A DNA stretch of 64,000 nt from Rhodopseudomonas rhenobacensis (lineage in GTDB: Bacteria > Pseudomonadota > Alphaproteobacteria > Rhizobiales > Xanthobacteraceae). The notes beneath the pieces were generated by a model. That model made no database searches and was not told the origin of the DNA. It saw only the letters and a program-made list of their open reading frames with translations. Below are positions 1,176-18,304 of the stretch, piece by piece (position 1 is the first letter of the stretch; every line of letters begins with the position of its first letter). The translations under genes and the position numbers were made by a program. The stretch covers positions 124,001-188,000 of the forward strand of contig NZ_JACHIH010000002.1 in assembly GCF_014203125.1 (NCBI RefSeq), given 5' to 3'.

Positions 1176-1422
1176 CCGGTCGCGCTGGGCGAAGTGTGCG
1201 CCGCAGCGCCCGCCGGCGGCTGGTCGTTGGCAATGCCGTCCACAATAGGCGGATGAGCAAGGACTTTGCAGCACATCAAAAACAACCCCGTCTTCAATAC
1301 GGAGCTGTTCCACTTCGGCGATCGCGCAAATCGGCAATTCAGCGGGACGCTATACCCACAACTGATTGCCGGTGAGCGCGCGAGCGCCGCATTCCGAGCA
1401 GGATGGCTGCCTTCTAGAACGG
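1176..1422. other. Gap of about 250 bp between AraC remnant and IS remnant
   Basis: No gene is supported. In one plus-strand frame (about 1265-1420) a short coding-like stretch contains FNTELFHFGDRANRQFSG and AFRAGWLPS; it begins right after a stop and runs into the transposase remnant, so it may be the tail of a gene cut by the insertion. I cannot name its family. Confidence 0.3.
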
Positions 1423-2052
1423 TTATGCGCGCCTGACGCGAGAGAAGAAGCTCTCGATGATGTTGGTCGAAACGCCAAGACCGTGCCGGTAGGCCTCCGA
1501 ATGGTCCACCCGGGTGAGCGGATTGAGGCCGCAGAGTCCATCATATGCAAGATGTTCGTCGGCATAGACGTGAGCTTTGCGGCTCACGTGAGTTCGGACG
1601 ATGTCCCAGGCTCAATCGGCGTTCTCGGTCGGGGTTACCCGGGTGAACGTCTGCCCAATCAAGCAGCGCTCACGCGCTGCCATCACGACCACACGTTGCG
1701 GCGACTGGATCTTGCGTCGATCATCACGATCCTCTTTGCGGTTCTCCTGCCGGATGTGACCACCGAGGTACATGCCGTCGATTTCCACACGGTCGTCGAG
1801 CAACATCTGCTTCCGTCTTGCGGCCAATGCTTCTCTCAACTTCATCGGATTCGACCATGCCGTCTTGGTCTGAACTCCGAGTTCACGGGCGACCTGCAGT
1901 GCGGCCTTGCCCTTCGCTGCATTCGCCGACATGGCGATCACCGCAATAATCTGCCTAAACATCAGCTTCCGGCTGGCGAAGATGATGCCGCTGGTGAGAG
2001 GATTACACACTTGCTGAATTGCACGAGGCCAAACTTGCGAAGCCTGTATCAT
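1423..2052 (-). pseudogene. IS1595-family (ISXO2-like) transposase remnant
   Basis: The minus strand carries the middle of an ISXO2/IS1595 DDE transposase: the TSGIIFASRKL block, AKGKAALQVARELG, the catalytic EIDGMYLGGH region, YADEHLAYDGL, and the ending GVSTNIIESFFSRVRRA. The N-terminal zinc-ribbon half is missing, an in-frame TGA interrupts the frame at 1612-1614, and the last residues are lost at the TAA at 1423. No terminal inverted repeats were found, so the element is dead. Beside a two-partner secretion locus it suggests past mobile activity at this boundary. Confidence 0.75.
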
Positions 2053-2157
2053 CCGAGAGGATAGAGCATGATTGCCCTACGCTGACGCGTATCCGTAGTT
2101 GACGTAGGAGTTGGCGCATTCTGTAGTCTAAAACTTGCAGAGAAGCGCGCCGATACG

Positions 2158-5100
2158 CTACCAGACCGTATAGGTATTGCGCTGATATGAGCAAACGCAA
2201 GCAATCGTCGATAGGTCGAGCCGATAGTAGTGTTCGAACGCGGAGAACAACTTGCTTTCGTCGCATGACAACCGCTCGCCAAACTGCACGTCATTAAAGT
2301 TGGCTGCGTCGATAAAGCTCGTGGCGAAATAGCTTGGAAAGATCACCGGGCGGATCTTGGGAGTGAGGTCGGCCAGCGACGACGGGAAGGCAGGGAGCGT
2401 GGGCGGCACCGTGACGATGAGGTTGGCGCCTGCGTAACTCAAAATGTAGTTGGCGGAGGCGGCTAGTGTACCTCGGAGGATGGGATATGGGCCAGGGCTG
2501 GACGCGATTGTGGCATTCGTTGCGAGGCCGCCGGTGAGGCTGTCGCCATTGACCAAGCCGGAGCTGACATAGGTCAAAGCTGGATTGGCGACGCCGTATA
2601 GCCGCGACTGGGCATTGGCAGTGACCGCGAGGGGTGCTGGGGTTACGCTGAGATTGGCCCCAATATAGCTGATCGCGTAATTGGAGTTGGCCAGACTGCC
2701 CTGTGTGATGCCGTAGAGACCGACATTCGAGGTCGGACCGGCGGCAGTGAACAGGCTGCCGGACAGGCTGTCGCCGTTCAGTAGGCCCGAGCTGGTATAG
2801 GTCAGCGCTGGGTTGGCGGCGCCATAGAACCGGGATTGTGCATCGGCGGTCACGCTGAGCGGAGCCGCGGCCACGCTGAGATTGGCCCCAATATAGCTGA
2901 TCGCGTAATTGGAGTTGGCAAGGCTGCCCTGGGTGATGCCGTAGATTCCGACATTGGAGGTCGGGCTGGCGGCAGTGAACAGGCTGCCGGACAGACTGTC
3001 GCCGTTGACCAGGCCGGAGCTGGTATAGGTCAACGCCGGATTGGCGGCACCGTAGAGCCGGGACTGCGCGTCGGCGGTGACGGTGAGCGGAGCCGCGGTG
3101 ACGCTGAGGTTGGCGCCGGTATAGCTGATCGCGTAATTGGAGTTGGCAAGGCTGCCCTGGGTGATGCCGTAGATTCCGACATTGGAGGTCGGGCTGGCGG
3201 CAGTGAACAGGCTGCCGGACAGACCGTCGCCGTTGACCAGGCCGGAGCTGGTATAGGTCAACGCCGGATTGGCGGCACCGTAGAGCCGGGACTGCGCGTC
3301 GGCGGTGACGGTGAGCGGAGCCGCGGTGACGCTGAGGTTTGCGCCGGTATAGCTGATCGCATAGTTCGAGGACGCGGCAAGCGTGCCCTGTGTGATGCCG
3401 TAGAGACCGACATTCGAGGTCAGGCCGGCGGCAGTGAACAGGCTGCCGGACAGGCTGTCGCCGTTGACCAGGCCGGAGCTGGTATAGGTCAGCGGCGGAT
3501 TGGCCGCGCCGTAGAGCCGGGATTGTGCATCGGCGGTGACGGTGAGCGGAGCCGCGGTGACGCTGAGGTTGGCGCCGGTATAGCTGATCGCATAGTTCGA
3601 GGACGCGGCAAGCGTGCCCTGGGTGATGCTGTAGATTCCGACATTCGAGGTCGGACCGGCGGCAGTGAACAGGCCGCCGGACAGACTGTCGCCGTTGACC
3701 AGGCCGGAGCTGGTATAGGTCAGCGCCGGATTGGCGGCGCCGTACAGCCGCGATTGCGCGTCGGCGGTGACGGTGAGCGGAGCCGCGGTGACGCTGAGAT
3801 TGGCCCCAATATAGCTGATCGCGTAATTGGAGTTGGCAAGGCTGCCCTGGGTGATGCCGTAGAGGCCGACATTCGAGGTCGGACCGGCGGCAGTGAACAG
3901 GCCGCCGGACAGACTGTCGCCATTGACCAGGCCGGAGCTGGTATAGGTCAGCGCCGGATTGGCGGCGCCGTACAGCCGGGATTGCGCGTCGGCGGTGACG
4001 GTGAGCGGAGCGGCGGTGACGCTGAGGTTTTCTCCGGTGTAGCTGATCGCATAGTTCGAGGATGCGGCAAGCGTGCCCTGGGTGATGCCGTAGAGGCCGA
4101 CATTCGAGGTCGGACCGGCTGCAGTGAACAGGCCGCCGGACAGACTGTCGCCGTTGACCAGGCCGGAGCTGGTATAGGTCAGCGCCGGATTGGCGGCGCC
4201 GTACAGCCGCGATTGCGCGTCGGCGGTGACGGTGAGCGGAGCGGCGGTGACGCTGAGGTTTGCTCCGGTGTAGCTGATCGCATAGTTCGAGGATGCTGCA
4301 AGCGTGCCCTGGGTGATGCCGTAGAGGCCGACATTCGAGGTCGGATCGGCGGCAGTGAACAGGCCGCCGGACAGACTGTCGCCATTGACCAGGCCGGAGC
4401 TGGTATAGGTCAGCGCCGGATTGGCCGCGCCGTAGAAGCGCGATTGCGAATCGGCCGTGACGGTGACGGGCGCTGCCGTCACCGCGAGCGCGCCGTCCAC
4501 ATAGCTGACGACGTATCCCTGCTGGTTGGAATACAGGCCGCTCGCCACAATGGAATAGTTGCCGACATCGACCGCGCCCTGCGCGGTCCCGGCGTAGCTC
4601 ACCGTTCCGAGCAGGTTTCCGTCGGGCGCGGTCGAATAACTGACGCCGTTGCCGCCGGCAAACGGCTGCGCGTCGTAGACCTTGGTTGCGCCCGACGCCG
4701 TCACCGTCAGCGGCACCATGAACGTGCGCAACAGCGGATTGGTGTTGCCGTTATAGATGGTCCAGATGCTGGTGAAATCCCAGCCGGGAAAGTTGACTGC
4801 CTGCTGCATCTGCGCGCCGGTGAGTCCGGTGCCGCCCGGCGAGGCCGGTTGTCCGGAAGTATCGAGATTCCAGTAGCTGCTGGTAACGGCTCCAGAGTTG
4901 CTGCCCAGCAAGCCGCCGACGCTGTTGCCGCCGCTCACCGCGCCGGTCGAATAGCTGTTCACCACCGAGCTGGAGTTGGCTCCCATCAGTCCGCCGACGC
5001 TGGTGGTGCCGGTGACGCTGCCGGTCGCGTAGGTGTTGCTGACGATGCCGGTCGTGCTGCTGCCGGTCAGGCCTCCGACGTAAGTGGTGCCGAAGACGTT

Positions 5101-7428
5101 GCCGGTGGCATAGCTCTGTTCGATGGTGCCGGTGTTGCTGCCCATCAGGCCGCCGACGCTGCTGGTGCCGTTGACGTCTCCGGTGGCGTAGCTGCGGCTG
5201 ACCGCGCCGGTGTTGCTGCCCATCAGGCCGCCAAGGCTGCTGCCGCCGCTGACGGTGCCGGTGTTGTAGCTGTTGATGATGGTGCCTGTATTGCTTCCGA
5301 CCAGGCCGCCGCCGGAGCTGAGCGCGTTAACGCTGCCCGCCACGAGTCCGACATTCCGGATCAGGGAGGCGGACCCGGTCGATCCGAACAGGCCCTGATC
5401 CGCGGTGACGGGGCGGTTGATGACGAGACCGCTGATCGCATGGCCGAGCCCGTCGAACGTACCGGTGAACGGGAGCACGAGTGTTCCGATCGGCGCAAAC
5501 CCAAGCCCCGAGTTCCAGGTCGCCGTTGCGCTGGCGTCGATATTGCTGCCGAGCGCGTAGTGCCCGGTCATGTCCGAGGCCGAGAGGCCCTGCAAGGTCG
5601 GCGTGGCGGGTGCCAGGATCGCATCGCCCTCCAGTCCGAGGCTGTTGATTACCGTGTAACCGATTCCGCCGATCGACAGCGCGGGGGTCGCGCCGGACAG
5701 CGTGATCGCGGATTGGTGGGCGAGAACATAGACGCCGGATCCGCTGGCGGCCTCGCCGCTGGTCGGGGTGTTCGGGTTGATCGCCAGGCCGGCGGTGTCG
5801 CCGGTGGCGGTGATGTTCGCGTTGACGTTGACGTTGTTGGTCGCGTTGAGCGTCAGCGTGGTGTTGGCGCTCCACGAGATCGCCGCGTTGACGTTGACGT
5901 TGCCGGCCTGGGCCGAGGCGCTGCCGGTCTGCAGCACGACATTGGTGCCGCCATTCAGCGCGGCGCTGATATCGCTGTTGCTGACGACGCTGCCGCCGGC
6001 GGTCGGGGTCCAGGTCCCGGTCGGCGATTGCGGCGCCGTCGATGCGGTGTCGGTCACCGTCAGATCGAACGGATCGAGCAGCCAGGTGCCTGCGGCACCG
6101 TGCGGCGCCGTCGCGTTGACCGAGATGCCGGCGACGTCGAGCCGATGCCCGGAGGTCTCGACGGTGCCGCCATTGCCCAGCAGGGCGCCGCGGGCGGAGA
6201 GCGTCCCGGCAACGCGGGTCGTGCCGTCCGCCCATGCCACGATCGTTCCGCCGTTGCCGTTGCCGGTCGCGTCGGCTTTCAGAATAACACCAGGTCCAAT
6301 CGAGACCGAGTCGGCATGCGCAAGCGAGCCACGCCCCTGATAACCGCCGCCGATCAGAATGCTGCCGCCGCCGGTGGCGCCAGATGTGTCGAGCGCGGCG
6401 TTATCGATCGACACGGCATGACCCGTGAGGGTGATCGCGCCGCCGGTCGCGCCCTTGCTGGTGGCGGCGAGACGTGCGCCGACGACGGTGACGTCGTGAC
6501 CTTCGATAGCGATAGCGCCGCCGCCGGCCGTGCCGGCCTTGCGGCCCCCCGAGGCGTTCAGTTTGCCGGTCACGGTGATGTTGCCGCCCGCGCCGCCGCC
6601 CAGCACGATCGCGCCGGAGCGCCCCGAAACCGAGCGGGCGGAGAGACTTCCCGACACGTTCACCGCGTCGCGGATCGCCTGCTTCACCGTGGCCGCTCGC
6701 AGCGCGATCGAGCCACCCGCCGCGGCGATCCGACCGGAGACGTCCACCAGCGCCTTGCCGTTGCCGGATGCGGCGGTCGGCACCGCGACCTGCATGAATC
6801 CGTCACCGGCGAGATCGAGCACGATGGATTCGCCTGATCCCAGTCCGACCTTGCCGAGCGGCACCTTGATGGTCCCGGAATTGGAGACGGTGCCGCCGAG
6901 CAGCGCGACGAAGCCGTCGCGGCCGACCGTGATAGCACCTGCATTGTCGACAGCGGCCGAACTGCCGTTGCCGGTAAACACCCGCCTGCCCGCCATAAAA
7001 TCGCTATCGCTGATGTCGAGCGTCGAAGCGACAAAGCCACCGCCGACATCGACCGTTCCGGTCGGCGTGATCGCGATGCCGTTCGGGTTGACGAGATACA
7101 CCTGCCCGTTGGCGCGCAGGCTGCCGGCGATCGTCGACGGCGTCTCGCCGGTGACCCGATTCAAGATTGCCGAGGTGCTTGCCGGTTGATTGAACGTGAC
7201 GCTGTTTGGCTGTCCGACGGAAAATGACGTCCAGTTCGCGACCGCGACCGCCGAGGTCTGGTTGATGGTCAGGGTGTTGCCGATGGGAGCACCGATCGCA
7301 GCACTCCCCGCCGTGACCGTGCCGCCTTGCGGCAACAGGTTCTGGGCCACAGCGGACGGAGCTCCACTCAGCGAAAGACTGAGGGCAAGCGGACCACAAA
7401 CGATTGGGCTAAGGAGATTGCGCAACAC
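2158..7428 (-). CDS. TpsA: filamentous-haemagglutinin-type adhesin with GLUG and MBG repeats
   Basis: Predicted secreted exoprotein of a two-partner (type Vb) system, 1756 aa. I chose the GTG at 7428: a GGAAGG ribosome site lies 8-9 nt upstream and a clean signal peptide follows (about residues 1-29, ending PSAVA). Earlier in-frame starts exist at 7497 (TGATG overlap with tpsB) and 7533. Residues about 30-300 form the TPS/haemagglutination-activity domain with the diagnostic NPNG (114-117); a glycine-rich beta-helix follows; about 705-860 hold GLUG repeats (GGLMGSNTG pattern); about 985-1675 hold nine MBG-type repeats; the last 80 residues are non-repetitive. No metal-dependent active site was seen. 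Likely role: surface adhesion. Confidence 0.85.
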   Translation of the reverse strand: MLRNLLSPIVCGPLALSLSLSGAPSAVAQNLLPQGGTVTAGSAAIGAPIGNTLTINQTSAVAVANWTSFSVGQPNSVTFNQPASTSAILNRVTGETPSTIAGSLRANGQVYLVNPNGIAITPTGTVDVGGGFVASTLDISDSDFMAGRRVFTGNGSSAAVDNAGAITVGRDGFVALLGGTVSNSGTIKVPLGKVGLGSGESIVLDLAGDGFMQVAVPTAASGNGKALVDVSGRIAAAGGSIALRAATVKQAIRDAVNVSGSLSARSVSGRSGAIVLGGGAGGNITVTGKLNASGGRKAGTAGGGAIAIEGHDVTVVGARLAATSKGATGGAITLTGHAVSIDNAALDTSGATGGGSILIGGGYQGRGSLAHADSVSIGPGVILKADATGNGNGGTIVAWADGTTRVAGTLSARGALLGNGGTVETSGHRLDVAGISVNATAPHGAAGTWLLDPFDLTVTDTASTAPQSPTGTWTPTAGGSVVSNSDISAALNGGTNVVLQTGSASAQAGNVNVNAAISWSANTTLTLNATNNVNVNANITATGDTAGLAINPNTPTSGEAASGSGVYVLAHQSAITLSGATPALSIGGIGYTVINSLGLEGDAILAPATPTLQGLSASDMTGHYALGSNIDASATATWNSGLGFAPIGTLVLPFTGTFDGLGHAISGLVINRPVTADQGLFGSTGSASLIRNVGLVAGSVNALSSGGGLVGSNTGTIINSYNTGTVSGGSSLGGLMGSNTGAVSRSYATGDVNGTSSVGGLMGSNTGTIEQSYATGNVFGTTYVGGLTGSSTTGIVSNTYATGSVTGTTSVGGLMGANSSSVVNSYSTGAVSGGNSVGGLLGSNSGAVTSSYWNLDTSGQPASPGGTGLTGAQMQQAVNFPGWDFTSIWTIYNGNTNPLLRTFMVPLTVTASGATKVYDAQPFAGGNGVSYSTAPDGNLLGTVSYAGTAQGAVDVGNYSIVASGLYSNQQGYVVSYVDGALAVTAAPVTVTADSQSRFYGAANPALTYTSSGLVNGDSLSGGLFTAADPTSNVGLYGITQGTLAASSNYAISYTGANLSVTAAPLTVTADAQSRLYGAANPALTYTSSGLVNGDSLSGGLFTAAGPTSNVGLYGITQGTLAASSNYAISYTGENLSVTAAPLTVTADAQSRLYGAANPALTYTSSGLVNGDSLSGGLFTAAGPTSNVGLYGITQGSLANSNYAISYIGANLSVTAAPLTVTADAQSRLYGAANPALTYTSSGLVNGDSLSGGLFTAAGPTSNVGIYSITQGTLAASSNYAISYTGANLSVTAAPLTVTADAQSRLYGAANPPLTYTSSGLVNGDSLSGSLFTAAGLTSNVGLYGITQGTLAASSNYAISYTGANLSVTAAPLTVTADAQSRLYGAANPALTYTSSGLVNGDGLSGSLFTAASPTSNVGIYGITQGSLANSNYAISYTGANLSVTAAPLTVTADAQSRLYGAANPALTYTSSGLVNGDSLSGSLFTAASPTSNVGIYGITQGSLANSNYAISYIGANLSVAAAPLSVTADAQSRFYGAANPALTYTSSGLLNGDSLSGSLFTAAGPTSNVGLYGITQGSLANSNYAISYIGANLSVTPAPLAVTANAQSRLYGVANPALTYVSSGLVNGDSLTGGLATNATIASSPGPYPILRGTLAASANYILSYAGANLIVTVPPTLPAFPSSLADLTPKIRPVIFPSYFATSFIDAANFNDVQFGERLSCDESKLFSAFEHYYRLDLSTIACVCSYQRNTYTVW
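2400..4480 (-). repeat. Tandem array of about nine 228-231-bp MBG repeats inside tpsA
   Basis: The segment GCGGCAGTGA recurs at 2741, 2969, 3197 and 3428 and on to about 4347, giving a period of 228 or 231 bp. Each unit encodes the pattern VTADAQSRLYGAANPALTY ... SSGLVNGDSLSG ... NYAISYTGANLSVTAA. Two variants (GTLAASSNY and GSLANSNY) differ by one codon and are intermixed along the array. The units nearest the ends (RFYG first; VTANAQSRLYGVANP last) are the most divergent. Confidence 0.9.
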
Positions 7429-7496
7429 ATACAGATCCTTCCGAAAGTGAATCGTCGTGGGCGAGACGGCTTGAAATTCGGTGATCGCGATCACCA

Positions 7497-9284
7497 TCAG
7501 AACCGCACGTTCATGACGACATTTCCGCGCCAAGCATGCGGCAGGTCAGGCAGATTTGAGAATTGCCGCGCCACTTCCAGCCCCAGCGTGAGGCCTTGGT
7601 ATCCGCCGGCAAGTTCGATGCCGCTGCGCACGCCGGCGCCGACCGACCCGCCCCGAATGGTGGATAATTCGAGGATGGTCGGCGCGATCAGCCGGCCGGC
7701 TCCGACGCTGCCAAAGCCGTATGGTGACAGCACGATCGGGACCGCTGTGCCCATCGCGGCAAACGGGCGCGCAAGCTCGACCCGCAATGTCCCGCCCTCA
7801 TCGACGTTCAACGTTCCGGTTGAAAAGGCCGATAGTGCCTGCGGGCCGTCCAGCGCGAACTGCTCGGAGACGAACAATGGATGGCCGAACGAGGTCTGTG
7901 CACGGCCTATGAGATCGAAGTTCAATCCGTACGGCAGCGGCTGAAACACGCGCGCGTCGAACGTCGCCTTGGAGAAATAGGGGTCTGAACCCTGTCGCGA
8001 CAGCGGCACGCCGGAGGCCAGTGCATCGGATTGATCGCGTCCGCCGACACCTTGGGAGAACCCGGCGTTGAGCTGCAGCGCGCTGCCCCAGGCGGGCAAC
8101 CCGGTGTCGAAGGACGCGCCGGCGCGAAATGCGTTGTAGCGATCCCGGTTGAGGTCGGCGGAGAACAGCGGCAACGCAATGCTCTGCTCGATATGTTCGA
8201 ACGCCGCGTTGAAGCTCAGCAACGTCCTGCGGGTCCGAATCGCAGGAAACGATGTTCGCACCGCGAAGCGCTCGAATTGGCCGATGCTGGAGAGGCTGCC
8301 AACGACCGGCCGGGGCTGGCTGCGCGCATTGGTGTATTCCGGATTCAGGACCCAGCCATCGCTGCCGAGCGGCAACACGGCACCGGCCCCAAGCACCCGC
8401 AACGGAGATGCGGAGTCGAACAGCAGTCCCGGATCGCCGCTTGCTTGCGCCGATGCGTAGAACTGTTCGCCGAGCCCGAGTGCCGAATTGAGAGCGGCGC
8501 TGGTGCCGTAGCTCCAGCTTCCCAGCGAGGCGGGAAGTCGGTTGTCGATGCCGGCTGTCGCGCTCACCAGCCGTTGGGTGCCCTCGAGCACCAACAGCGC
8601 GCCGCCCATCATCTTGCCGCGCGCGAGTGTGCTTTTCAGCCGCAGGCCCGGCACGTCGCCTGCAGTCAAGAGCAGCCGTTCGATCTCGGCGAGAGTGATA
8701 TGACCGCGCCCGATCAATGGGGCCATCCGCGAAGCCACCACCGCGCGTATCCGCGGCGGAACCTGTTCGACGCCGACGGCCTCGATGAAGCCATCGATCA
8801 CGACGATGCGCACGATTCCGCCGTCGTTTAGTTTCTGCTCGGGCACCGTTACTCGGACAAGGACATAGCCGGCGCGCGCGTAGGCCTGTTCCAACGCGCC
8901 GACAAATTCATAGACTTGGGCCACGGTGACCCGCTGTTTCTCGATCGTCGCAACCAGCGCGCGGGTTTCTTGAGCAAGCTCCTCGAACGATCCGGTGATC
9001 GCGACGCGTCCGGCCACAACGCTGAGACGTTCGGAGCCCGTCGGGGCCTGCAATCGGACTCGGCCCTCGGCGGGCAGTCCGACGGGCCCGATCGAAAGTG
9101 CGGGCCGCAGCGTCTGCGGCGTCACCTGGCTGGGGGCGATCTGGGAATACGCGGCGCTTGGTGGAACTACGAATGTAAGACAGAGCGGCACCGCAAAGCC
9201 AAGCGCTACGTTGGGGATGAAACGGCGTTCGCTCCGGGACAACCTGGTGCCAGATTCAAAGCCCACGGAAGACCGTGATGACAC
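7497..9284 (-). CDS. TpsB: ShlB/FhaC/HecB-family outer-membrane transporter
   Basis: Outer-membrane pore that exports the TpsA encoded immediately downstream; 595 aa. Order: signal peptide (cleavage near PPSAAYSQ), a POTRA region (about 60-260, with AYARAGYVLVRVTVPEQ and the following GIVRIVVIDGFIEAV typical of ShlB-type POTRA), then a 16-strand-type barrel ending RGNVVMNVRF with the terminal Phe recognised by BamA. The chosen start is GTG at 9284. Its stop overlaps a possible ATG of tpsA (TGATG at 7495-7499), so the two are probably co-transcribed and may be translationally coupled. No truncation is visible. Confidence 0.88.
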   Translation of the reverse strand: MSSRSSVGFESGTRLSRSERRFIPNVALGFAVPLCLTFVVPPSAAYSQIAPSQVTPQTLRPALSIGPVGLPAEGRVRLQAPTGSERLSVVAGRVAITGSFEELAQETRALVATIEKQRVTVAQVYEFVGALEQAYARAGYVLVRVTVPEQKLNDGGIVRIVVIDGFIEAVGVEQVPPRIRAVVASRMAPLIGRGHITLAEIERLLLTAGDVPGLRLKSTLARGKMMGGALLVLEGTQRLVSATAGIDNRLPASLGSWSYGTSAALNSALGLGEQFYASAQASGDPGLLFDSASPLRVLGAGAVLPLGSDGWVLNPEYTNARSQPRPVVGSLSSIGQFERFAVRTSFPAIRTRRTLLSFNAAFEHIEQSIALPLFSADLNRDRYNAFRAGASFDTGLPAWGSALQLNAGFSQGVGGRDQSDALASGVPLSRQGSDPYFSKATFDARVFQPLPYGLNFDLIGRAQTSFGHPLFVSEQFALDGPQALSAFSTGTLNVDEGGTLRVELARPFAAMGTAVPIVLSPYGFGSVGAGRLIAPTILELSTIRGGSVGAGVRSGIELAGGYQGLTLGLEVARQFSNLPDLPHAWRGNVVMNVRF

Positions 9285-11259: not shown

Positions 11260-11340
11260 TAACTACTCGCGCAATAAGGGCGCTCGCGCTTCCCATGAAT
11301 CGGCCAGCCGGATCACGAAGCGGCAATAGGAGAGATGCAG

Positions 11341-12078
11341 ATGAAGAAGTTTCTGTTAGGTACGGTTGCTCTCGTGGCACTGGGCGTGGCCGCCCCGGCG
11401 GTGGCTGCTGATCTTCCCGCTCGCACCTACACCAAGGCGCCGGCCTACGTCGCCGCGGTCTATGATTGGAGCGGCTTCTACATCGGCGCCAACGCCGGCG
11501 GCGGCTGGTTCAAGGACAACTGGAATTCGTTGGGCGGTTTCGACCTCGGATCGCATACCGGCGACGGGGCCGTGGCGGGTGGTCAGATCGGCTATCGCTG
11601 GCAGACCGGCACCTGGGTGTTCGGCCTCGAAGCTCAGGGCGACTGGGCTGATCTGAAGGGCGACCACGACGATACGTTCTTCTCGACGCGGTCGGACAAC
11701 TCCAAGCTGAAAGCCTTCGGTCTCTTCACCGGCCAGATCGGCTATGCCTGGAACAACGCCTTGCTGTATGCCAAGGGCGGTGCTGCGGTCACCAGCACGA
11801 ATTATAACGTGTCATTCCCGATCGCCGGCGTCACCGCGAGCACCAACGACGTGACCAAGTGGGGCGCCACCGTTGGCGCCGGTCTCGAATACGGCTTCGC
11901 TCCGAACTGGTCGATCGCAGTCGAGTACGACCACATCTTCATCGATCGCAAGGACGTCGATTTCGCCTTCACCGCCACCGGAATTTATTCCGGCACCTTG
12001 CGCACCGGCGGCGACACCGATCTGGTCACCGCTCGTCTGAACTATCGCTGGGGCGGCCCGCTGATCCCGCGGTTCTGA
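11341..12078 (+). CDS. Omp25/RopB-type outer-membrane beta-barrel protein
   Basis: Small porin-like barrel of the family abundant in Rhizobiales; 245 aa. An AGGAGAG site at 11328-11334 touches the ATG at 11335 but sits 6 nt from the ATG at 11341, so the latter is the better start. Signal peptide MKKFLLGTVALVALGVAAPA, cleavage near AVAAD; then DWSGFYIGANAGGGW and repeated GQIGYRWQTG-type beta hairpins; the end RLNYRWGGPLIPRF supplies the C-terminal Phe for barrel insertion. It stands alone, followed by a strong terminator, and separates the divergent ssb and uvrA genes. Ligand unknown. Confidence 0.9.
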   Translation: MKKFLLGTVALVALGVAAPAVAADLPARTYTKAPAYVAAVYDWSGFYIGANAGGGWFKDNWNSLGGFDLGSHTGDGAVAGGQIGYRWQTGTWVFGLEAQGDWADLKGDHDDTFFSTRSDNSKLKAFGLFTGQIGYAWNNALLYAKGGAAVTSTNYNVSFPIAGVTASTNDVTKWGATVGAGLEYGFAPNWSIAVEYDHIFIDRKDVDFAFTATGIYSGTLRTGGDTDLVTARLNYRWGGPLIPRF

Positions 12079-15331: not shown

Positions 15332-15391
15332 TCCTTGATTCGCTAACAATTCGCTACAATCTGTGGTGCGCTTTCGATCTAGGAGTAGCTA

Positions 15392-16657
15392 ATGCCCTTG
15401 ATTGCGTTGTGGCAATCGAATCCGACTGCCATTGGTGAATCAACGATTGAGCAAATCGTTGCGATGGCCGGCGATGGAAATTTACGAGATGCCACCGCTT
15501 GTTCGCAAGAATTCAGGCAATACCTTTCCGAGATTCCTTCCGGAAAGTTGGGCGAATATATTGATCATTGTCTTTCGTCCAGCTTCACCAAGAGTGGAAT
15601 GGTGCTTCAGGATCTCGTAAACGAACTCGGCCGAAGGCTTGACTACAAAGTCACGAATGGCCGCTATCAGGGCACCATTGGGGGGATAGGATATGACGGA
15701 ATTTGGACGTCGCCTGAAAGTCACACGATCATCAGTGAGGTCAAGACTACAGATGCGTATCGCATCTCGCTTGACACTATTGTTTCATACCGAGAGAAAC
15801 TCCTGTTAAAAAGTGAAGTATCCGGAAAGCCATCTATATTAATCGTTGTTGGGCGTGAGGATACGGGTGAGCTTGAAGCTCAAATTCGCGGATCTCGGCA
15901 CGCTTGGGACATTCGCCTAATCAGCGCCGAAGCATTATTAAAGCTGGTCCAGCTTAAGGAAAATTCGGACAATCCAGATACCGGGCGGCAAATCCGAAGT
16001 TTGCTTATGCCCATGGAATACACCCGGCTCGACAACATGGTCGATGTTATGTTTGCCACAGCCACTGACGTCGAAGCGATTATCGCCGAAGCTAATACTA
16101 ACGCAGATAGTGAAGAAATTCCTCTAACATCTGAAGTCGTAAAAACCGGCTGGGAGTTTACTGATTTTGCAGTCATTGACGGCAAACGAGCCGAGATCGT
16201 TGATGCTATCGGCAGAAAACTCGACACAAAGTTTATCAAGAATACGAGGGCACTCTTCTGGAATGCAAATCATGAAAAGCGCCTCGCATGTTCGATCTCC
16301 AAGAGATATACGAAAGGAACTTCATCCCGCTACTGGTACGCTTATCATCCGGCCTGGGACGAGTTCTTACGGGGTGGGATTGAATCGTATTTCGTCCTTG
16401 GATGCGTGGACTTAAACCTGGCATTTTCGATTCCTCATGAGGTGATCGAAGGCAATTTGCTAGCTCTGAATACGACTAAGACAAGCCGGAAGACCTATTG
16501 GCACATTCATTTAATCGAAACCGACGGTGGTCACTCGATTCTTTTGCCACTTTTGGGGGCCGGCAAGACGCTTCCAGTCGACCAATTTACGATCCAGCTG
16601 GCTATTAGCCCCCGTAGGATGGAGTTGGGTTTGCAGAACCCATCTCACAGTCACTGA
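15392..16657 (+). CDS. Probable PD-(D/E)XK nuclease-like protein (restriction-type), family unknown
   Basis: 421 aa with an ideal AGGAG site at 15381-15385. Residues about 95-155 look like a PD-(D/E)XK nuclease core: GYDGIW (D102), a 13-residue gap, then SEVK (E116, K118), followed by a hydrophobic strand (SILIVVG) as in Mrr/restriction folds. The C-terminal half (about 250-410) has several aromatic-rich beta segments (SSRYWYAYHPAWDEFL, YFVLGCVDLNLAFSIP, KTYWHIHL) that could recognise DNA, but I cannot place them in a family. Base composition is clearly AT-richer than uvrA, indicating transfer. It converges on a toxin-antitoxin pair. No methyltransferase accompanies it. Confidence 0.55.
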   Translation: MPLIALWQSNPTAIGESTIEQIVAMAGDGNLRDATACSQEFRQYLSEIPSGKLGEYIDHCLSSSFTKSGMVLQDLVNELGRRLDYKVTNGRYQGTIGGIGYDGIWTSPESHTIISEVKTTDAYRISLDTIVSYREKLLLKSEVSGKPSILIVVGREDTGELEAQIRGSRHAWDIRLISAEALLKLVQLKENSDNPDTGRQIRSLLMPMEYTRLDNMVDVMFATATDVEAIIAEANTNADSEEIPLTSEVVKTGWEFTDFAVIDGKRAEIVDAIGRKLDTKFIKNTRALFWNANHEKRLACSISKRYTKGTSSRYWYAYHPAWDEFLRGGIESYFVLGCVDLNLAFSIPHEVIEGNLLALNTTKTSRKTYWHIHLIETDGGHSILLPLLGAGKTLPVDQFTIQLAISPRRMELGLQNPSHSH

Positions 16658-16733: not shown

Positions 16734-17039
16734 TCAAGTCCGGGTCAGCAAAACGTAGCGCATAGGATTGAGCACTTGCGAAACCCATCTTCCGTTCGTC
16801 CGTGGGGACCTGATCCAGACCACGGTGGGGCCGTTGTTCGAGGCCGCGCGTATCATCAGAAAATCTCGGTCTTTGGTCACCAGCGCCGCAGATTGGTCAA
16901 TCGCGGCTTGCCAAATCTGGCGATCCGTCGCGGCCAGCAAGCCGATGTCAGCGACATGAAACGCCTCGCAACCGGCATGCCGAAACGGCTCCGCCAGCGC
17001 CGGCGGAAGCTGTGCATCGATCAGAAAGCGAGGGCTCAT
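16734..17039 (-). CDS. DUF5615 PIN-like toxin
   Basis: 101 aa. Matches the DUF5615 (Mut7-C-like PIN) family: FLIDAQLPPALAEPF at the start, AFHVADIGLLAATD, and ALVTKDRDFLMIRA, which together give the acidic residues (D8, D40 and the D57/D59 region) expected of a PIN-type RNase. Its ATG overlaps the stop of the upstream DUF433 gene by 4 bp (TCAT at 17036-17039), a standard antitoxin-toxin layout. The toxin role is inferred from family and pairing; RNase activity is not shown. The gene ends 76 bp from the convergent nuclease-like gene. Confidence 0.8.
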   Translation of the reverse strand: MSPRFLIDAQLPPALAEPFRHAGCEAFHVADIGLLAATDRQIWQAAIDQSAALVTKDRDFLMIRAASNNGPTVVWIRSPRTNGRWVSQVLNPMRYVLLTRT

Positions 17040-17263
17040 TCCGCCGCGATGACCGGGTGATCCGCCTGCTTTGCTGCGAAGGCCAGAGCCGCGTCAATGT
17101 CGGCGTTTTCCAGATACGGATAGTCGCGCAGGATGTCGTCGCGCGACGCGCCCGCTGCGAGCTGGCCGAGAATGTCGGCGACGCTGATGCGCAGGCCGCG
17201 AATGCAGGGGCGACCGTGCAGGACGTCCGGATCGATGGTGATGCGCGCGAGCAGGTCCGACAT
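17036..17263 (-). CDS. DUF433 antitoxin
   Basis: 75 aa from the ATG at 17263, preceded by AGAGG at 6 nt spacing; a longer frame begins at 17290 but lacks a ribosome site. Carries the DUF433 signature ITIDPDVLHGRPCIRGLRIS, then VADILGQLAAGASRDDILRDYP, a winged/HTH-like fold, and ends EADIDAALAFAAKQ-like. DUF433 proteins are the usual partners of DUF5615 PIN toxins; as antitoxins they probably bind both the toxin and their own promoter. First gene of the two-gene operon. Confidence 0.8.
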   Translation of the reverse strand: MSDLLARITIDPDVLHGRPCIRGLRISVADILGQLAAGASRDDILRDYPYLENADIDAALAFAAKQADHPVIAAE

Positions 17264-17530
17264 CGAAAACCTCTGCAGGCAGCTTAGCATTTTGCAGGCT
17301 GTTTGACAGCGAGCAAAGCTGGATCAGCCAGCGACGTCGGCAAATGCGGGGTCATTACTGTCTCCGGAATATCGCTGTGCTCTTCACGGGCTGCGGGCAG
17401 AAGTTGATCGCCTGCCCATCCCCCTTCCTTCGATACTCCCGCACTGTACCAAATAAGAGACAAGCTGAGCCGACCCGCGACCTTAGGCTGTTTGCAGAGA
17501 GTGATTCTCCTACAGCCCATAGGAAACGCC

Positions 17531-18304
17531 ATGACCCGGTTCTCGCGCGGCGGACTTGCCGCCCTTGTCACGCTTGCCGCCCTTGCGATGGCGAGTTCGG
17601 CCTCCGCCGCCGACGTCGCCGCCTATCGCTCCGCGCTGCCGATCGCCGCGCCGGGGGGCGCCTGGAGCGGGCTCTATCTCGGCGGCAATGGCGGCTGGGG
17701 CTCGAGCCGCAAGTGCTGGGATTTCGTCAATGCGGCGGGCAGCTTCCTCAGCTCGGAAGGCTGCCACGACGCCACCGGCGGCACCGCGGGCGGCCAGCTC
17801 GGCTATCGCTGGCAGGCCGCCAATCTGGTGTTCGGCGTCGAGGCGCAGGGCAACTGGGCGGATTTCAACGGCAGCAACATCAGCATCGCCTTCCCGACCG
17901 TCGTCAACGCCACCAAGGTGGATTCCTTCGGGCTGTTCACCGGCCAGATCGGCAATGCCTGGGGCAACACCCTGCTCTATCTCAAGGCCGGCGGCGCGGT
18001 GACCTCGGATCGCTACACCGGCTATCTCACCTCCAACGGCGTGCAGATCAGCGACGCGGTGAAAGACACCCGTTGGGGCGCGGTGGTCGGCGTCGGCGTG
18101 GAGTACGGCTTCGGCGGCGCCTGGTCGGTCGGCGTCGAATACGACCACATGTTCATGCAGGACAAGCTGATCAGGTTCACCAATATCGGCACCGTGGCGC
18201 CCGCCGGCACCGCCTATGCCAGCGACCGCATCCATCAGGACGTCGATCTGGTGACGCTGCGGCTGAATTATCGCTGGGGCGGCCGCGCCGTCGCGCGCGA
18301 CTGA
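17531..18304 (+). CDS. Outer-membrane beta-barrel protein (Omp25/RopB type)
   Basis: 257 aa from the ATG at 17531, with AGGAAAC immediately upstream; the GTG/other starts from 17492 lack a site. Signal peptide MTRFSRGGLAALVTLAALAM, cleavage near ASAAD, then AWSGLYLGGNGGWG, GGQLGYRWQAAN, a middle hairpin GLFTGQIGNAWGNTLLY and the last strand LVTLRLNYRWGGRAVARD. It is a paralogue of the protein at 11341-12078, with the same hairpin order, but ends in Asp rather than the usual terminal Phe, which is unusual for BamA recognition. Ligand unknown. Confidence 0.85.
   Translation: MTRFSRGGLAALVTLAALAMASSASAADVAAYRSALPIAAPGGAWSGLYLGGNGGWGSSRKCWDFVNAAGSFLSSEGCHDATGGTAGGQLGYRWQAANLVFGVEAQGNWADFNGSNISIAFPTVVNATKVDSFGLFTGQIGNAWGNTLLYLKAGGAVTSDRYTGYLTSNGVQISDAVKDTRWGAVVGVGVEYGFGGAWSVGVEYDHMFMQDKLIRFTNIGTVAPAGTAYASDRIHQDVDLVTLRLNYRWGGRAVARD

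Follow-up and report, generated by a model that had tools for sequence, protein, structure and literature searches.

What does the AT-rich gene that follows uvrA in Rhodopseudomonas rhenobacensis encode, and how could its host be spared by the product? The gene lies in the window, the 64,000-nucleotide stretch of DNA that we analysed, at 15392 to 16657 on the forward strand, 60 bases beyond the end of uvrA. A sequence-only reading had proposed a possible defence nuclease with a PD-(D/E)XK core. The reading frame is intact, from an ATG at 15392 to a stop at 16657, and its 421 codons specify, as judged from homologues and alignments, a restriction-type nuclease joined to a C-terminal module. The AGGAG at 15381 to 15385 on the same strand, 6 nt before the ATG, is a probable ribosome-binding site. 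We looked for a sigma-70 consensus promoter of the gene and found none.

The 421-aa protein matched no family in Pfam, NCBIfam or PADLOC and no PDB sequence. A profile search of the PDB sequences returned one chance match, and a profile of the C-terminal domain returned none. The PADLOC HMMs also failed to match the homologues at loci L010 and L021. The best PHROGs match had an unusable E value of 0.13, and sequence searches with the window protein against plasmids and phages gave nothing usable. The same was true of plasmid searches with the L010 protein and with a C-terminal domain fused to a GmrSD enzyme, and viral scans with these two queries gave no matches. The family is rare and patchily distributed: it occurred in 5 to 6 of about 390 genomes per sample in two samples, three of these by C-domain matches only, and in fewer at the phylum scale. 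Across the family, identity to the window copy is 35 to 64% in the nuclease domain and 18 to 44% in the C-domain. The gene encodes an intact nuclease of defence type whose family is undescribed; its catalytic domain is of a known kind and its C-terminal module has no name. Because the family is absent from Pfam, NCBIfam and PADLOC, annotation pipelines that rely on these libraries would miss it.

The composition of the gene is foreign to its surroundings, as had been proposed. Its G+C content is 48.2%, against a window mean of 65%, which is 5.0 sd below the mean for stretches of the same length. Among all 1266-bp windows in the 64 kb, G+C is lowest in those overlapping the gene, and the GC3 of the gene is 51% compared with 90% in the adjoining uvrA. 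The gene is present in a single copy in the 5.18-Mb host genome. In an empty-site comparison, similarity to relatives of the host extended through uvrA and stopped at its end, which left the ends of the insertion undefined. A script search found no flanking direct repeats of at least 10 bases at the locus. The best homologue (54% identical) is on a plasmid-like Sphingomonas contig that carries a Rep3 initiator and a resolvase. Homologues in other alphaproteobacterial families are 50 to 51% identical, and those within the host's own family are only 37 to 39% identical. On this sequence record the gene is a horizontal acquisition, as indicated by the low G+C, the single copy, the break at the end of uvrA in relatives, and the closer homologues outside the host family.

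Beyond uvrA, the nearest relative (L055; G005:C12:396000-405400) carries a DUF4258 gene and then an incomplete duplicate of the uvrA 3' end, with 88% identity across about 200 bp. An Mrr restriction endonuclease gene and a DUF433 gene come next. Single defence genes may have landed repeatedly at the uvrA 3' end. In the window, two paralogous outer-membrane-protein-like genes (11335 to 12078 and 17492 to 18304) lie on either side of uvrA and the nuclease gene, and their DNA is in part 69% identical.

A toxin-antitoxin neighbour had been taken as a mark of defence. HMM matches do place a DUF5615 PIN-like/DUF433 pair at 16734 to 17290, on the reverse strand. However, its G+C content is 62%, so it lies outside the AT-rich stretch and is no evidence of an island shared with the nuclease gene. 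The nearest relative has its DUF433 gene slightly further on. The pair is probably resident and says little about the nuclease; because its composition is host-like, it is weak evidence for a defence role.

The N-terminal domain (residues 1 to 226; 15392 to 16069, forward strand) is predicted to be a FokI/BspD6I/HindIII-like PD-(D/E)XK nuclease. Because the nuclease core did not resolve in a model of the full-length protein, we modelled the domain separately; the alignments used for folding comprised five or six sequences, with loci from the genome searches left out. Residues 1 to 233, folded alone from five sequences, gave a pTM of 0.75 and a pLDDT of 71 in the best of five models (the others reached 52 to 60). 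The model consists of a helix (68 to 82), three strands (86 to 89, 103 to 106 and 112 to 118), a second helix (127 to 139) and a further strand (148 to 153), which is the alpha-beta-beta-beta-alpha-beta core of the PD-(D/E)XK superfamily. Foldseek matched it to HindIII (E value 8e-5, probability 1.00) and to FokI and the R.BspD6I small subunit (probability 1.00 each). The structural aligner gave Z scores of 13.3 for Nt.BspD6I (177 residues), 12.5 for HindIII (194 residues), 11.1 for the R.BspD6I small subunit and 10.9 for FokI, with the next matches at or below 8.2. The nuclease core that had been read from the motif is thus borne out by the predicted fold.

The putative catalytic residues are where the sequence-only reading had put them, with exactly the spacing that it gave. 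D102 (15695 to 15697), the catalytic acid of the PD motif, immediately precedes strand 103 to 106, and E116-V117-K118 (15737 to 15745), the ExK motif, ends strand 112 to 118. All of the first five full-length sequences have D102, E116 and K118 unchanged, and 10 of the 11 aligned retain them. D74 of helix A (15611 to 15613) is also invariant and may be a metal ligand. The hydrophobic strand said to follow the ExK motif is conserved as well (SILIVVGR, 148 to 155). The FokI/BspD6I-type match spans the whole cleavage domain (160 to 198 residues, Z 10.9 to 13.3, above the unrelated structures), in a model with a pLDDT of 71 from five sequences, and is hence of moderate strength. By this model, the N-terminal domain is a restriction-enzyme cleavage domain and more than a motif match. 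The exception to D102 and K118 conservation is a diverged homologue (26% identical; L027, 3495 to 4898), in which the D and K are lost and YGG and EFVF stand in their place. It may be inactive or have another role.

A variable linker of low confidence (about residues 227 to 256; 16070 to 16159, forward strand), with pLDDT mostly under 40 and gaps in the alignment, leads to the C-terminal module (residues 257 to 407; 16160 to 16612, forward strand). The model, fold matches and homologues together predict a RecU/Hjc/NhoI-like fold without catalytic acids. The pLDDT of the module is mostly 65 to 94 in the full-length model. Its nearest folds are NhoI, I-Ssp6803I, Hjc and RecU, with tied Z scores of about 6 to 8.4 that are near the level of common arrangements. 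Against viral models, Foldseek matched several small proteins without a characterised function at probability 1.00; Holliday-junction resolvases, RecU among them, ranked lower. The strands expected to bear the D and ExK appear to read SISK and YWYAYHP, and no catalytic acids were seen there in the model. YWYAYHP and YWHIHL are the aromatic strands of this half, which had been noted, together with its lack of a known family, from the letters alone. A search for an SRA-, EVE- or PUA-like fold had also been suggested, but there was none among the matches listed (NhoI/I-Ssp6803I/Hjc/RecU-type folds, Z about 6 to 8), so that part of the reading is not clearly upheld.

The C-terminal module also occurs apart from the nuclease. 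It forms the C-terminal end of a 782-aa GmrSD type IV enzyme (L012; GmrSD_N/GmrSD_C), follows pentapeptide repeats (L031), lies behind a 250-residue N-terminal part with no Pfam match (L013, 9162 to 10304), and persists as a lone remnant (L009). Within the limits of alignment A3, the residues invariant across these fusions are, in window numbering, S303, Y314, W315, L326, C338, T362 and H371. The pentapeptide fusion (L031, 7726 to 8421) adjoins a 226-aa protein of no known family. In a C-domain tree, the window copy falls among members that are solitary, linked to Kiwa, or fused to GmrSD or pentapeptide parts, and the C5-methyltransferase-associated ones stand apart with moderate support (83/80). 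A DNA-binding or reader domain is the natural inference. We offer only tentatively a more specific proposal, that the module is an undescribed reader of DNA modification built on a dead PD-(D/E)XK-like fold and exchanged among FokI/HindIII-like nucleases, GmrSD enzymes and pentapeptide proteins, which would make the window protein a pseudonuclease-guided nuclease. The module, joined here to a well-known kind of cleavage domain and elsewhere to a type IV enzyme, would represent a new reader class if modified DNA is what it reads.

The claim that this is a defence gene gains from the neighbourhoods of the homologues. At L011, a C5-methyltransferase gene is divergent from XRE, the homologue and Vsr, M-C-R-V being the usual order. 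The M-C-R core recurs at L010, where the XRE and nuclease starts overlap and McrB/McrC and Vsr lie close by. McrB/McrC might itself be the nuclease partner of that C5-methyltransferase, and the pairing with the homologue is therefore uncertain. Around the L003 homologue are genes for a C5-methyltransferase, a GHKL ATPase, an integrase and, by eye, a Vsr-like protein; a possible Response_reg_2 protein was recognised by eye and position, with no HMM match. This set resembles the type II clusters of C5-methyltransferase, Vsr and paraMORC/Response_reg_2 genes in PMC8011034 and PMC2292703. KwaA (1e-91) and KwaB (8e-130) are directly upstream of the L021 homologue, with a PglX-like methylase and a Cas4-like protein farther upstream, and Drt2 (1e-125) and an HNH protein are near the L026 homologue. 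The L021 region (1348 to 9212) is on a viral contig; its PglX/DUF1156-like methylase, Cas4-like/RNase H protein, KwaA, KwaB and nuclease homologue together are possibly an extended Kiwa locus. A phage copy (L022/L023) is beside terminase. No defence neighbour was seen around the nuclease gene at L024, L025, L027 or in the window, and the copies at L024, L025 and in the window are solitary amid housekeeping genes. Solitary copies occur in genomes G000, G755 and G772, those of G755 and G772 without a linked methyltransferase. By simple count, known defence genes adjoin about half of the independent loci. By neighbour context, a defence role of the nuclease, probably against phage or other DNA entering the cell, is well supported. 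Neither of the findings that the sequence-only reading had named as refuting it, a predicted structure lacking a nuclease core or homologues with exclusively non-defence neighbours, was obtained.

No methyltransferase is adjacent to the window gene, as had been read from the sequence, and a search of the whole 5.18-Mb host assembly widens this finding, because it detected no C5-methyltransferase (PF00145). Matches to N6/N4-type methylases are present elsewhere in the genome and are possible partners. Among other carriers, we found no C5-methyltransferase in G772, a short fragment of one near a contig end in G755, and genes for such enzymes in G309 and G188, which carry the C-terminal module. 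With the G755 fragment and the G309 and G188 genes, it does not hold cleanly that a carrier lacking a linked methyltransferase is always found in a genome free of C5-methyltransferases. The window gene does have the type IV-like trait of a single system without a linked methyltransferase. The window nuclease is probably modification dependent; the missing C5-methyltransferase and the C-domain in common with a GmrSD type IV enzyme make this plausible. Such dependence looks not to be universal in the family, because two homologues are in ordinary-looking type II M-C-R order by a C5-methyltransferase.

The computations gave a nuclease core, conserved catalytic residues, a separable C-terminal module, foreign composition and defence neighbours of several relatives. 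We suggest, with a probability of about 0.5, that the gene was acquired horizontally and makes up a single-gene system, a restriction endonuclease lacking a methyltransferase partner. In this scenario, the C-terminal module would bind incoming DNA at a particular feature, a modified base within some sequence context being the likeliest. The N-terminal domain, using D102, E116, K118 and Mg2+, would then cleave, probably as a dimer, and the host would be spared if its own DNA lacks the recognised mark. The simplest account has the C-domain set the target, a reasonable inference since the window C-domain groups away from the C5-methyltransferase-linked ones and has diverged from those of L010 and L011 (20 to 23% identity) more than the N-domain (48%). 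It is likewise reasonable that methyltransferase-linked members would act on unmodified targets. The weakest link is the step to modified targets for solitary members such as the window copy. It is prompted by the need for a solitary intact restriction nuclease to spare its host, but the partner may simply be unlinked, or something other than modified DNA may trigger the enzyme. Several observations count against this explanation: L010 and L011 are in classic type II order, an arrangement in which methylation would block the enzyme; it is not obvious what the pentapeptide fusion would have to do with DNA modification; C5-methyltransferase sequences occur in G755, G309 and G188; and support for the C-domain grouping is only moderate.

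The gene could instead encode an ordinary type II endonuclease, possibly IIS-like, that cuts at a fixed site in unmodified DNA. Its methyltransferase would then be unlinked or not a C5 enzyme, or would have been lost because the site is rare or expression is off in the host. The gene orders at L011 (with Vsr) and L010, the similarity of the N-domain to type IIS and IIP enzymes, and the N6/N4-type methylases of the host would all fit. Yet no C5-methyltransferase was detected in the assembly, a type II nuclease left intact without its methyltransferase normally kills the cell, and the low C-domain identity means that specificity cannot be transferred from L010 and L011; we consider this rather unlikely. 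Alternatively, the protein might be a non-specific nuclease triggered by infection, an abortive-infection factor whose C-terminal module senses a phage product or ligand rather than DNA. A C-fold without catalytic residues, joined elsewhere to pentapeptide repeats and the L013 domain, and a homologue directly after kwaA-kwaB are in keeping with such a sensor. This is an improbable account, given a nuclease domain of restriction-enzyme type, a C-fold resembling DNA-handling folds, and a window without an adjacent sensor or nucleotide-signal gene. It is very doubtful that the nuclease was acquired horizontally but has no defence role here, serving instead in repair or mobile-element maintenance or persisting as a decaying passenger. 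The solitary copies amid housekeeping genes, the phage copy by terminase genes and the lost catalytic residues of L027 could be read so, but the window copy retains its frame, ribosome-binding site and catalytic residues, and family members are repeatedly and independently placed by defence genes.

With a conserved nuclease domain, a fast-changing C-domain, and both apparently methyltransferase-paired and solitary forms, the family would offer a way to study how a restriction enzyme shifts between ordinary and modification-dependent targeting. Among known systems, the type II clusters with C5-methyltransferase, Vsr and paraMORC/Response_reg_2 genes include a homologue (L003), whereas the window gene lacks those partners. 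The type IIS restriction and nicking enzymes Nt.BspD6I/R.BspD6I and FokI resemble the window protein in catalytic-domain fold (160 to 198 residues, Z 11 to 13), in an acid and ExK-type site, and in having separate recognition and cleavage domains. However, the catalytic domain of Nt.BspD6I is at the C terminus (PMC8533099), and cleavage comes first in the window protein, so the order is reversed. Identity to these enzymes is only 8 to 16%, their recognition parts are unrelated to that of the window protein, and no methyltransferase gene is linked to the nuclease gene in the host. The type IIP enzyme HindIII shares the topology of the N-domain, its preceding helices included, but differs in that it lacks a further C-terminal module of this kind and is paired with a methyltransferase of its own. 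The window protein shares its layout with DpnI and PvuRts1I/AbaSI, two-part modification-dependent enzymes in which an N-terminal nuclease is followed by a C-terminal reader. DpnI is also among the weak fold matches. The fold of the window C-domain corresponds neither to a winged helix nor, with any clarity, to an SRA domain. The nuclease domains of GmrSD type IV enzymes are DUF262/DUF1524 (GmrSD_N/GmrSD_C), neither of which is in the window protein, but the 782-aa GmrSD enzyme bears the same C-terminal module.
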